Shown: piece after piece, positions 16,819 through 20,607 of the stretch
How positions within the stretch are numbered: the first letter of the stretch is position 1
How the letters are laid out: each line of letters begins with the position of its first letter
The notes under the pieces: model-generated
The model's database searches: none
What the model was told of the DNA's origin: nothing
The model's input: the letters and a program-made list of their open reading frames with translations, nothing else
Assembly: GCA_001724425.1 (NCBI GenBank)
Contig: MEEK01000006.1
Coordinates: 53,654 to 117,653 of the forward strand
DNA length: 64,000 nucleotides
Direction: 5' to 3'
From: Microbacterium sp. SCN 70-27
Lineage (GTDB): Bacteria > Actinomycetota > Actinomycetes > Actinomycetales > Microbacteriaceae
Position numbers and translations under genes: made by a program

Positions 16819-17934
16819 ATGGCCATCGACCAGCACGGCGACGCGAAGATCGGCGGCGTCTCGATCCGATCGCTTCCGAAGGTGTCGCTGCACGACCACC
16901 TCGACGGCGCGCTGCGGCCGCAGACGATCATCGACCTCGCCGATGCGGCCGGGCTCGACGTTCCCGAGACCGATGCCGCCGACCTCGCGGACTGGTTCGA
17001 GGACCAGAGCGACTCCGGCTCGCTCGTCGAGTACCTGAAGACCTTCGACCTGACGACCTCGGTCATGCAGACCGCCGACGGGCTCCGACGCGTCGCGAAG
17101 GAGTTCGTCGAGGACCTCGCCGCCGACGGGGTCATCTACGGGGAGGTGCGCTGGGCTCCCGAGCAGCACCTATCCGGCGGGCTCTCGCTCGAGGAGGCCG
17201 TCGAGGCCGTCCAGGAGGGGATCGAGGAGGGTGAGGACGTCGTCGACCGGTCCGGTCGGGACATCCGCGTCGGCCAGCTCGTCACCGCGATGCGGCACAC
17301 CGACCGGTCCCTGGAGATCGCGAAGCTCGCCGTGGAGTTCCGCGGTCGCGGGGCCGTCGGCTTCGACATCGCCGGTCCGGAGGACGGCTTCCTGCCGTCG
17401 CGGCACCGCGCGGCGTTCGACTATCTGGCATCCGAGTTCTTCCCGGTCACCGTGCACGCGGGGGAGGCCGCCGGGCTCGATTCGATCCGCTCGGCGCTCA
17501 TCGACGGGCGCGCGCTGCGGCTCGGGCACGGCGTGCGCATCGCCGAGGACCTCGAAGTCGTCCAGCAGCAGGGCGACGAGGTGCTCGTCACGTTCGGCGA
17601 CGTCGCACGCTGGGTGCGCGATCGGGAGATCCCGCTCGAACTGTCGCCGTCGTCGAACCTGCAGACCGGCGCGATCGCGCGCTGGGGGACCGCGCTCGAG
17701 GATCACCCGTTCGACCTGCTGTACCAGCTGGGCTTCGCCGTGACGGTGAACGTCGACAACCGGACGATGAGCCGCACGTCGCTCACGAGGGAGCTGTCGC
17801 TGCTCGCCGAGACCTTCGAGTACGGCCTGGACGACCTCGAGTCCTTCCAGCTGAACGCGGCGGCCGGGGCATTCCTCTCCGTCGAGGAGCGCGAAGAGCT
17901 CATCGAACTGATCGGCGAGGGCTTCGCCGCCTGA
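16819..17934 (+). CDS. add: Adenosine deaminase
   Basis: 371-residue amidohydrolase-fold enzyme converting adenosine or deoxyadenosine to inosine forms. Zinc and catalytic motifs are visible: HDHLDGAL near residue 24, VTVHAGEA with the HAGE motif, and VTVNVDNRTMSRT near the C-terminus with the conserved Asp pair. GAAGGAG lies 5 bases upstream of ATG 16819. It is the last gene of the nucleoside scavenging cluster; inosine would feed purine nucleoside phosphorylase at 34.2 kb. Confidence 0.96.
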   Translation: MAIDQHGDAKIGGVSIRSLPKVSLHDHLDGALRPQTIIDLADAAGLDVPETDAADLADWFEDQSDSGSLVEYLKTFDLTTSVMQTADGLRRVAKEFVEDLAADGVIYGEVRWAPEQHLSGGLSLEEAVEAVQEGIEEGEDVVDRSGRDIRVGQLVTAMRHTDRSLEIAKLAVEFRGRGAVGFDIAGPEDGFLPSRHRAAFDYLASEFFPVTVHAGEAAGLDSIRSALIDGRALRLGHGVRIAEDLEVVQQQGDEVLVTFGDVARWVRDREIPLELSPSSNLQTGAIARWGTALEDHPFDLLYQLGFAVTVNVDNRTMSRTSLTRELSLLAETFEYGLDDLESFQLNAAAGAFLSVEEREELIELIGEGFAA

Positions 17935-18062: not shown

Positions 18063-18142
18063 CCGAACTCCTCCAGTTTCCCCAGCTGACCCCGCGACAC
18101 GCCGCTGCGAGGGACCGGCCGCCCCGGATTGGAGGAGTTCGG
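18063..18142. repeat. 80-bp palindromic element, copy A
   Basis: Bounded by the 13-bp inverted arms CCGAACTCCTCCA (18063-18075) and TGGAGGAGTTCGG (18130-18142). The 54-bp interior is about 80 percent identical to copy B, including CCAGCTGACCCCGCGACACG. The stem would extend by a G-T and a T-A pair. See copies B, C and D. Confidence 0.9.
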
Positions 18143-18225
18143 AACACCCGACGTCAGTTCCGGGCGCGGGCCCATCCGTGCGAACTCCGGCGCTCCGGCC
18201 CGCCGTGTCTTCCCCCGACCGTCGC

Positions 18226-18305
18226 CCGAACTCCTCCAGTTTCTCCAGCTGACCCCGCGACACGCCGTCGTGAGGCGCCGGCCGCGCCGGATTGGAGGAG
18301 TTCGG
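18226..18305. repeat. 80-bp palindromic element, copy B
   Basis: The same 13-bp arms at 18226-18238 and 18293-18305, extended by one C:G pair outward. The interior contains a second inverted pair around GGCGCCGGCCGCGCC. It ends 11 bases from the stop codon of the DUF559 gene and could also serve as its 3' hairpin. Confidence 0.9.
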
Positions 18306-18316
18306 GACGCGCGCTC

Positions 18317-19168
18317 TCAGCCCCGACGAGCGTGGGCGAGCACGTCCCGCATCGTCGCGACCATGTCGTCGTGGGCGTACAGGATGTCTTCGGCCAGCGG
18401 GCGGACAGTGGTGTAGCCGAGGCGGGCTGCCGCCAGGTCGCGACGCAGGTCCTTGCGCCGCACGGTCCAGTCGGAGTGATACTCCTTGCTATCGCACTCG
18501 ACGATGAGCCAGCCGTCCACGAGCAGGTCGACGCGTCCGACGCCGGGGATCACCACCTGGACCTCGACATGATGCCCGAGCGCGCGTAGCAGGAGCCGCA
18601 TGAGTGATTCGGAGCCCGCCTCCGACTGCGGGTCGAGGAGCGGACGTAGCGAGCAATAGCGTTCGGGGAGCCGCCGGAAGACCTCGGCGATGGTCGGCCC
18701 GTGCAGAAATCCCTGATGCCACGCCGAGTCGAGTGTGGCGATGGCGTCGCGCGGCGACTGGCAGCGCACCGCCGAGACGACCGCGTCGATGACATCGGTC
18801 GTGAGGGCTCCGGTATCGCGGAGATCCGGTTCTCGCCAGTGCGCGGCGACGTAGTCGGGGCGAGGAGGAAGACGGCTGGCTCCGCGGTCGATGTGTAGGT
18901 GCAGCGTTTGGTGATCTCGCACGAACACGCCGAGGGCGTGGAGCAGCGAGACACAGCCGAGGCGGCCACCATAGCGCGCGGCGGTGACGAGGCGATGATC
19001 TGTCTCGGCGGCGACGTAGCGTCCTGTGCGCACACGGAGGAGATGGCCGCAGGCCACCTGACTACGCAAGCGGAGTTTGCCGATGCCCTGCGCACGCAGT
19101 TCGGCGGTGGTGAGGGATCGCGCCGTGAGCAGCGCCTCGGGGCGGATGGTGAGACTCGGATTCGACAT
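18317..19168 (-). CDS. DUF559 endonuclease-like protein with N-terminal AbiEi/wHTH-like region
   Basis: 283 residues from ATG 19168; a GTG at 19180 is an alternative and neither has a clear ribosome site. The N-terminal half (TTAELRAQGIGKLRLRSQ, then GRYVA...RLGCVSLLHALGVF) resembles the winged-helix region seen in AbiEi-type antitoxin-like proteins. The C-terminal third has GRVDLLVDGWLIVECDSKEY and a following RRKDLRRD...LGYTTVRPLAEDI, matching DUF559 of the Vsr/PD-(D/E)XK nuclease superfamily. Candidate metal residues are the Asp of GRVDLL and the Glu-Cys-Asp segment. It is flanked by two palindromic elements on each side. Activity and target are unknown; an invertase-like or repair role is inference. 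Confidence 0.8.
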   Translation of the reverse strand: MSNPSLTIRPEALLTARSLTTAELRAQGIGKLRLRSQVACGHLLRVRTGRYVAAETDHRLVTAARYGGRLGCVSLLHALGVFVRDHQTLHLHIDRGASRLPPRPDYVAAHWREPDLRDTGALTTDVIDAVVSAVRCQSPRDAIATLDSAWHQGFLHGPTIAEVFRRLPERYCSLRPLLDPQSEAGSESLMRLLLRALGHHVEVQVVIPGVGRVDLLVDGWLIVECDSKEYHSDWTVRRKDLRRDLAAARLGYTTVRPLAEDILYAHDDMVATMRDVLAHARRG

Positions 19169-19270
19169 GCCGGTCAGCACAGCACTGTCCCGGATGCCGT
19201 GCTGCGCGATAACCCCGTTCTGTGGGTGAATCGCGGGAACTCGCGGCTGGGGAGAGGGCGTTCTCCGGGC

Positions 19271-19350
19271 CCGAACTCCTCCGGCTTTCGCGGATGCGGG
19301 GCGGATTCGGCGGCCTCGGCAGGGTGTCAGCCGGGACTGGAGGAGTTCGG
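19271..19350. repeat. 80-bp palindromic element, copy C
   Basis: Arms CCGAACTCCTCCG (19271-19283) and TGGAGGAGTTCGG (19338-19350). The single A-to-G change leaves a G-T wobble, and the stem extends outward by two GC pairs. The interior differs from A/B but its reverse complement contains GGCTGACACCC, like CAGCTGACCCC in A/B. This suggests opposite orientation. The 308-bp gap 19181-19488 otherwise holds no gene. Confidence 0.88.
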
Positions 19351-19453
19351 GCGCGGTGGTGCTGCGGTGCTGCGGGGGGAGGTATCTCGGGTGCGGCGGG
19401 CCGAGGCGCGGCGGCGGCGGGATAAGCCGGGGGAGAGGCGGTCCCGTGGTGAC

Positions 19454-19533
19454 CCGAACTCCTCCAGATGGGAGGCGTGAGTGGCGAATCAGTGGCCGCG
19501 CGGGCGGTGGCAGGCCGAAGTGGAGGAGTTCGG
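19454..19533. repeat. 80-bp palindromic element, copy D, overlapping the SDR 3' end
   Basis: Arms CCGAACTCCTCCA (19454-19466) and TGGAGGAGTTCGG (19521-19533), extended outward to a perfect 15-bp stem. The SDR gene stop (19489) lies inside this element, so the last residues of that protein are encoded by the repeat. Confidence 0.9.
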
Positions 19534-20607
19534 GTGGGCGGCGCGGGGTGAGTCGGCGGTGCGGGGTGAGTCGGCGGCGCGGGGTGAGTCGGCGGCGCGG
19601 GGAAGGCGGGCGGCGCCGGGAGGGCGGGCGGCGCCGGGAGGGCGGGCGGCGCGGGGAGGGCGGGCGACGTCGGGGTGAGTCGCGAGGTAGGCGTCGAACG
19701 CCTCGCGGGAGGTGCGGGCGGGGGTGAAGCCGAACTCGGCTTTCAGGGCGTCGTTCGCGAGAACCGGGCGGTAGCGCAGGAACCGCACCTGCTCGGGCCC
19801 GTGCACCGTGAGTCGGAACGCGCGCCCCACCTGCAGCACCAGGCCGAGGACGGATGCCGGGACCGTCAGCACCGGCTTGCCGAGTCGCGCCGCGATCTCG
19901 TGCACCGTCATGCGCCCGTCTCCCGCGACGTTGTAGATGCCGGGCGGGCCGTCCGTCGCGGCGCGCGCCATCGCCCCGGCCACATCATCGACCCAGATGA
20001 ACACGAACGGCGAGTCCGAGCCCCGCACGGCGAGGATGCGCGGGCCGTCCCACAGCGCCGTGATCTGGTTCTGGACAGTGGGGCCGAGGATCGTCCCGAT
20101 CCGGAAGACCACCTGCTCGAGCTCCGGATGCTCCGCACGGTGGATGGTGAGCATCTCCTCCACGAGTCGCTTGTGCTTGGAGTAGGCGAACTCGTCATTG
20201 CCGCGGATCGGGTCGCTCTCCCGCAACCACGCGGGGTTGTCGGGGTGATAGCCGTAGGCCGCGCCCGAGGACGAGACGACGATCCGTCTGATGCCCGCGG
20301 CGACGCACGCCTCCAGCACGTGCCGCGACCCGTCCACGTCGACGCGGTACTCGAGGTCGTGGTCGCGGCCGGGGTTCACGATCGCGGCGAGATGCACGAC
20401 GACGTCGATGCCATGGCGCTCGAGCAGCGGTGCGAGCGCCCCCGCGCGCGTCACATCGCATTCTTCGTACACGACGCCCGCCAGAGGTTCCGCCGGGAGA
20501 CGCACGTCTCCAGCGACGACGAGGTCGACGTCCTCGCGGGCGACGAGGGCGGATGCCACGTGCGTGCCGAGGAACCCCGCGCCGCCCGTGATGAGCACCC
20601 GGGTCAC
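19489..20607 (-). CDS. NAD-dependent epimerase/dehydratase (extended SDR) with repeat-derived C-terminal tail
   Basis: 372 residues. TGGAGFLGTH near the N-terminus is the extended-SDR NAD(P) motif, VSSSGAAYG holds the catalytic Ser region, and YSKHK is the catalytic Tyr-x-x-x-Lys. The substrate is unknown; it resembles UDP-sugar epimerase or dihydroflavonol-reductase-like SDRs. The enzyme body appears to end near residue 315 (DAYLATHPD). The remaining 55 or so residues are six-residue repeats (AARPPG, AADSPR) from an 18-bp minisatellite, then a tail from element D. GTG 20607 overlaps the symporter stop by four bases, making it the last gene of a three-gene operon. Confidence 0.85.
   Translation of the reverse strand: MTRVLITGGAGFLGTHVASALVAREDVDLVVAGDVRLPAEPLAGVVYEECDVTRAGALAPLLERHGIDVVVHLAAIVNPGRDHDLEYRVDVDGSRHVLEACVAAGIRRIVVSSSGAAYGYHPDNPAWLRESDPIRGNDEFAYSKHKRLVEEMLTIHRAEHPELEQVVFRIGTILGPTVQNQITALWDGPRILAVRGSDSPFVFIWVDDVAGAMARAATDGPPGIYNVAGDGRMTVHEIAARLGKPVLTVPASVLGLVLQVGRAFRLTVHGPEQVRFLRYRPVLANDALKAEFGFTPARTSREAFDAYLATHPDVARPPRAARPPGAARPPGAARLPRAADSPRAADSPRTADSPRAAHPNSSTSACHRPRGH
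19543..19668. repeat. 18-bp minisatellite, seven units, in frame with the SDR gene
   Basis: Seven contiguous 18-bp units: three of GCGGGGTGAGTCGGCGGY type and four of GCSGGGARGGCGGGCGRC type. Each encodes six residues on the minus strand, so copy-number change keeps the frame. It abuts palindromic element D. Confidence 0.88.

Follow-up and report, generated by a model that had tools for sequence, protein, structure and literature searches.

The paired inverted elements that flank a DUF559 nuclease gene in Microbacterium sp. SCN 70-27 are probably the cognate double-stranded sites of the linked nuclease, in an arrangement analogous to that of REPIN-RAYT systems but with a non-homologous enzyme. 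Apparent at the sequence level are the length classes of the elements, their A+T phasing, the bracketing of DUF559 genes, gene-specific arms, covariation of these arms with the protein, and dispersed copies; both-sided bracketing and A+T phasing are solid facts at that level.

Four paired elements and the gene between them

The window, i.e., the 64,000-nucleotide stretch of contig MEEK01000006.1 that was analyzed, contains four elements, each of 80 bp, two on each side of a DUF559-like gene, as follows:

16819..17934, strand +: adenosine deaminase gene, neighbour (context only)
18063..18142, no strand: element A, 80 bp, inverted 13-bp arms
18226..18305, no strand: element B, 80 bp; 83-bp linker to A; 11 bp from the DUF559 ORF
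18317..19180, strand -: AbiEi-like/Vsr-like predicted nuclease gene (DUF559, MTES_1575), 287 aa
19271..19350, no strand: element C, 80 bp, one mismatch in its arms; lies upstream of the nuclease ORF, 90 bp from its start
19454..19533, no strand: element D, 80 bp; 103-bp linker to C; overlaps the predicted epimerase ORF end
19489..20607, strand -: NAD-dependent epimerase gene, neighbour (context only)

An earlier note on this DNA had described the four elements and their 13-bp inverted arms, and its positions, lengths and arms were all confirmed. The arms, CCGAACTCCTCCA / TGGAGGAGTTCGG, are perfect in A, B and D and carry one mismatch in C; given the base composition, an 11-mer arm-core pair at one fixed spacing would be expected ~6e-9 times in 64 kb. 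The reported likeness of A and B was also borne out, their interiors agreeing at 47/54 positions. The claim that C and D resemble A and B only when reverse-complemented did not hold, as ungapped direct comparison outscored the reversed one in both cases examined (A-C, 22 vs 16 of 54; A-D, 21 vs 18 of 54). Directly adjoining element D, an 18-bp tandem repeat array (window 19533-19692) forms part of the C-terminal end of the epimerase ORF, which has low complexity. A DUF559 gene was found to adjoin adenosine deaminase in other species too.

The linked nuclease

The linked proteins are predicted from profile matches to join an AbiEi-like part to a Vsr-like nuclease. The front of the window protein is AbiEi-like according to PADLOC (AbiEi, E 9.9e-6), with no match in this protein to Pfam AbiEi; Pfam AbiEi_4 was detected in five of the eight proteins scanned, always below the cut-off (best 24.2 of 25 bits). 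The match of the window protein to MTES_1575 (E 4.5e-7, 30.3 bits) is under the Pfam cut-off of 38.2, and this protein falls below the cut-offs of both nuclease models, with Pfam DUF559 above its cut-off in 5/8 of the scanned proteins and one of the eight (L020) returning no nuclease match. Residues D218, E228, D230 and H235 are invariant or at least 90% conserved in 25 aligned homologues, and are presumably catalytic, a putative role that we assume from the fold family. The C-terminal profile matches PDB 3hrl, an ‘endonuclease-like protein’ (E 8e-5), and 3r3p, a ‘mobile intron protein’ (E 0.25). An AlphaFold model, built on an alignment four sequences deep, was unusable (mean pLDDT 45). In the part of the source consulted (PMC3710099), MTES_1575 is a domain of large HEPN fusions and is described as a nuclease of Vsr type. 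The gene is present in 37 of 197 class genomes, a search that supplied the loci of other genera considered below, and a viral collection yielded one weak partial relative.

DUF559 genes are bracketed by arms of their own

The arm family of the window brackets just one of the seven DUF559 paralogues of this genome, which first suggested that the link to DUF559 was a local accident; this notion was dropped after the paralogues had been searched one by one for arms of their own, when the association emerged strongly. Furthermore, a DUF559 gene adjoining adenosine deaminase is bracketed in lineages whose arms differ.

In a strict test, arms shared by both flanks were found at 21/35 DUF559 loci and at 0/275 control genes. 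A looser test, which counts any span of 66-99 bp, identified gene-specific arms shared by both flanks at 45 of 68 DUF559 loci, corresponding to 44 of 66 distinct genes (L272 repeats L138 and L271 repeats L129), as against none of the first 160 control genes; the loci are the best matches plus four individually added, i.e., a selection from among all DUF559 genes, and 23 of the 68 are without a shared-arm pair. Loci from outside the genus qualified in 11 of 24 cases. Mismatched flanks, taken from different locus groups, had arms in common in 49 of 4088 pairings, flanks of the same locus group from different species in 63 of 468, and the arms of one flank matched the reverse complement of the other’s at 10 of the 68 loci. 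In a wider control, the looser test was applied to genes of 600-1100 bp in blocks of four genomes, giving 0/275 (G099 and G013), 0/148 (G085) and 1/147 (G363), or 1/570 genes when pooled, that one being a DUF559 relative; this control strengthens the DUF559 link. The relative, found blind at G363 2141668-2142519 as the sole bracketed gene of 147 in a 400-kb block, is 42% identical to paralogue L022 of this genome.

Among the element-bearing loci of this genome, 2/49 genes of 600-1100 bp are bracketed, both of them DUF559. When genes of 300-4000 bp are counted, 4/140 are bracketed, including 2/138 non-DUF559 genes (a photolyase-like gene and a 1230-aa gene), both flanked by dispersed copies at loci that had been preselected as element-bearing. 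These two genes, together with the cluster comparison given below, slightly weaken the link.

Arm similarity rises with protein identity, with a Mantel rho of 0.255 against a maximum of 0.252 in 1000 permutations (39 loci, leaving out 14 without a script-found protein and L272 as the repeat of L138). Mapping of arm specificity to the wHTH (residues 20-62) was tried and rejected; this segment showed no closer relation to the arms (partial 0.03, permutation p 0.29) than the nuclease part did.

The central proposal of the earlier note, that the repeats belong with a linked DUF559 protein in an analogue of REP-RAYT, is thus supported by the counts of 45/68 loci, 49/4088 mismatched pairings and 1/570 genes and by the lack of a Y1 transposase in 13 genomes, and the DUF559 link is real and broader than that note guessed. 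As to the scattered copies lacking any DUF559 association that it had also considered, the scatter was found, with 23 copies and one paralogue of seven bracketed, but the lack of association was not, many DUF559 loci having arms of their own.

Copy number and distribution of the arm family

In this genome (2.65 Mb, 69 contigs) the exact arm pair of the window occurs 23 times with a spacer of 40-70 bp, the reversed control giving 0, and for two other paralogues, too, copies of the arms (<=3 mismatches) are dispersed at a distance from the gene itself. The elements are mostly intergenic, and are also located 3' of the nuclease gene and between convergent genes, as judged from gene positions assigned by a simple custom gene finder.

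Matches at 80-bp spacing with <=3 mismatches were found in 38 of 366 Microbacterium genomes, including this one and another of the same species, some of the single 3-mismatch matches possibly being due to chance; the remaining 328 genomes of the genus returned no match at 3 mismatches. The highest count under these settings was 55 copies, in genome G085 (50 with exact cores), and the reversed control gave 0 among the genomes listed. Across 84,980 named genomes, the exact pair was present in 43 stretches, i.e., 15 in PS02068, 13 in PS02067, five in Microbacterium hominis, three each in M. aurantiacum, strain VKM Ac-2870 and oral taxon 186, and one in a Puniceibacterium MAG, which was taken for chance. 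The assignment of the 366 genomes to Microbacterium, and of one of them to PS02067, is based on elements that match those in named records, as is that of G139 to M. aurantiacum and of G081 to M. hominis. The arms differ in a species-coherent manner (CTCCTCCA, CTCCTGCA, CTCCTCAA, CAGAACTCCTCCA). In the wider taxonomic family the core pattern GAACTCCT...AGGAGTTC was detected in 28/299 genomes, among them this one and one congener (reversed control 2/299), mostly as single matches that were judged by eye to lie in coding sequence, and outside the genus only G394 has three such pairs at 80-bp spacing.

A dispersed family was not seen in the 400 kb searched of each of G099 and G013; the latter has a lone 80-bp inverted pair with 15-bp arms of other sequence (L248:11489-11568). 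Clusters of a further inverted-repeat family with related arms (TGCGCAAAACTCAGGAGA; GCAGAACTCAGGAGA) are located at 2062612-2063134 in G085 and at 2105048-2105463 in its sister species G363, roughly at the place expected from synteny. The idea that unpaired half-sites are dangerous and avoided was rejected, orphan GAACTCCTC being not depleted: the counts are 33 (~710 kb of G085), 13 (G363, 400 kb) and eight (197 kb of this genome), compared with 17 (G099, 400 kb) and 18 (G013, 400 kb).

Change between strains and species

When 29 elements of this genome were compared with the near-identical relative PS02067, all had a counterpart there, and one cluster of PS02067 contains an additional copy. 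Substitutions between the two, counted in the 22 of 29 element pairs that passed the filter, affect 3/572 arm positions and 25/1218 interior positions (Fisher p 0.014), a count biased towards conserved arms because the elements had been picked by their arms. Inversion of the interior was sought and rejected: none was inverted among the 28 orthologous elements that could be compared, the 29th matched pair differing in length. A 410-kb block of G085 has five clusters; G363 shares three of them (one with 1 vs 3 copies) and lacks another, and the fifth was unaligned. Some neighbouring copies are near-identical, with flanks in common.

The loci compared yielded no clean empty site: L076 gave no right-hand match against this genome, the citrate synthase locus was too diverged in G169, and G363 holds two other genes at the place corresponding to G085 1921k. 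At the citrate synthase locus of G169 (L333 ~1766-1842) there is a single weaker inverted pair of 77 bp with different arms, CCGATGTCGGAGG, which may be due to chance, and this genome has three window-type elements at that place. A large accessory gene between thiolase and citrate synthase (L027:6001-9690), flanked by elements in this genome, is absent from that place in G081 and G163. At L029:6368-6447 an element overlaps the start of rdgB, with one arm encoded by the HKVEEFG codons; of 21 genomes examined, eight have the other arm upstream at the 80-bp spacing. Most of the coding half can persist in genomes that lack the element, which suggests that this site was built round an existing half-site and was not inserted whole.

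These comparisons bear on whether the nuclease has any part in the spread of the elements. According to one alternative, which we consider rather unlikely, the DUF559 protein uses the elements as fixed operators or architectural sites, for autoregulation and a small regulon; their copy number would change solely through ordinary local duplication and recombination, with no role for the nuclease in their spread. The co-location of three of the five G085 clusters in G363, one of them with 1 vs 3 copies, the near-identical neighbouring copies and the full matching of the 29 elements in PS02067, one extra copy apart, would all fit, as would the S. agalactiae AbiEi, which, in the part of the report consulted, binds two inverted repeats, bends DNA and represses its own synthesis (PMC7319586). 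Sites 3' of the gene and between convergent genes, where a promoter is unexpected, argue against it, as do the 50 exact-core copies of G085 when set beside the 328 congeneric genomes devoid of a match.

Much less probable is that element, gene and element together form an ordinary transposon whose MITEs are the dispersed 80-bp copies. Such a reading would account for inverted ends, a central gene and short dispersed copies. Unlike MITEs, however, the copies have no common interior (116 copies reduce to 60 at 70% identity), each supposed end is already a full two-armed element, many of the genes keep their flanking genes across species (locus groups of 16 and 14 loci), the loci gave no empty site, and searches with the window protein gave two weak matches at E up to 1e-10 among 72,556 plasmid records, and no match at E up to 1e-5 among 50,697 phage records.

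Element length, A+T phasing and folding

Of 95 exact-arm pairs, 93 measure either 79-81 or 90-93 bp, and none 82-89 bp, these 95 spans not being deduplicated and coming from loci fetched with patterns that permit ~62-100 bp. In the 50 elements of 79-81 bp among the 60 non-redundant ones, A+T content peaks near positions 5, 14.5, 25.5 and 35.5 and at the mirror positions, with a period of 9.5-10 bp (z about -16 vs interior shuffles). The few longer elements of the 60 have a central A+T peak, as an extra helical turn would give. The same phasing accompanies the other arms of G085, where A+T makes up 47% of the peak windows and 9.5% of the troughs (22 non-redundant 80-mers, with three 92-bp copies of the 50 omitted). 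At other DUF559 genes, 40 elements of 74-88 bp have a similar A+T profile (compared without a statistic), and 19 longer ones gave no clear profile. In one set, neighbouring elements are spaced in steps of ~10.6 bp (p 0.0006; 19 linkers, deduplicated by hand); a free scan of G085 gave no significant linker phasing (p 0.55, 10 linkers).

The interiors are devoid of palindromy, their mirror-register pairing is below expectation, and they fold little or no better than shuffles. Taken with the fixed 10-bp A+T phase, this suggests phased, bent double-stranded DNA and not a hairpin; accordingly, a hairpin or RNA reading was rejected, and the hairpin substrate envisaged in the earlier note was not upheld. 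It is highly improbable that the elements act single-stranded, either as transcription terminators or as classical RAYT-mobilized REP/REPIN hairpins: the arms are able to fold, the elements are mostly intergenic and the folding of G085 interiors slightly exceeds that of shuffles (mean z -0.42, SE 0.18), but the excess is smaller in the other set (-0.20, SE 0.14), mirror-register pairing and the B-DNA-like A+T phasing oppose it, and Y1_Tnp, the RAYT domain, was found in 0/13 genomes, the positive control matching in 6/14 known genomes.

Comparison with known systems

In the sections consulted of the original account (Bertels and Rainey 2011, PMC3116915), REPIN-RAYT systems are laid out as inverted doublets with a distinct repeat group beside each enzyme gene. 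Both systems would have in common the inverted doublet, whose conserved end words are separated by a less conserved spacer of fixed length, the arrangement in ordered clusters, and an enzyme gene accompanied by its own doublets. They differ in the enzyme, a Y1 tyrosine transposase there and a predicted AbiEi-like/Vsr-like fusion here, and in the spacer, a hairpin with compensatory changes there and a helically phased, non-hairpin interior here. These two defining features, the Y1 transposase (13 genomes) and the hairpin spacer, were looked for and not found; on the best reading, the present system would work like REPIN-RAYT with an unrelated, non-homologous enzyme.

As far as the consulted part of its description goes, the AbiEi operator resembles the elements in having protomers on inverted repeats (here proposed), DNA bending (here inferred) and an N-terminal winged helix (here putative). 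The repeats of AbiEi are, however, of 23 bp, 3 or 13 bp apart and placed in a promoter, with a DUF1814 toxin as partner, whereas here arms of ~13 bp are 54 or 65 bp apart on both sides of a gene for a fused nuclease; no AbiE partner toxin gene lies directly beside the window nuclease, whose neighbours are the adenosine deaminase and epimerase genes. AbiEi binding with bending is the best mechanistic precedent. Vsr-like endonucleases are matched by the C-terminal profile and the conserved D, ExD and H residues, and differ in that here no intron or mismatch-repair context was seen and the gene is flanked by paired sites of its own. Within the open-access literature consulted, no description was found of DUF559, MTES_1575 or AbiEi nucleases paired with inverted repeats, and a term search of the accessible text of a REP survey (PMC12306157) returned no mention of Microbacterium, Vsr or DUF.

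Proposed mechanism

Under the preferred reading, that of cognate paired sites, the linked protein would recognize each element as a composite site on double-stranded DNA, two of its protomers possibly contacting the two inverted arms by way of their AbiEi-like part. The 54 bp between the arms, or ~65 bp, roughly one helical turn more, would then be bent or wrapped, leaving the interior sequence free except for A+T at every inner turn. Such cognate binding and bending are likely. Each nuclease gene would be bracketed by sites of its own specificity, sites and protein changing together, and in some lineages the sites would have multiplied, mostly into intergenic DNA, to produce a REP-like family. 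Whether this multiplication is driven by the nuclease is more doubtful, and we would put it forward as a possibility somewhat short of even. More tentatively still, the elements and their genes may represent an independently evolved REP-RAYT-like system of Actinomycetes, in which each AbiEi-Vsr fusion keeps and recognizes a class of helically phased 80-bp paired sites of its own and copies them through cleavage and gene conversion, with several private repeat families per genome, one per paralogue, and fast-diversifying specificities.

Implications

The findings tie an orphan family, DUF559/MTES_1575 with an AbiEi-like front, to defined DNA sites, making its function directly testable. The 10-bp phasing provides a physical prediction, namely that elements lengthened by 5 bp would fail and those lengthened by 10-11 bp would work, and the sites belonging to each gene would supply dozens of natural protein-site pairs for decoding specificity. 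The system would, moreover, constitute a second, unrelated solution to the REP-RAYT arrangement.
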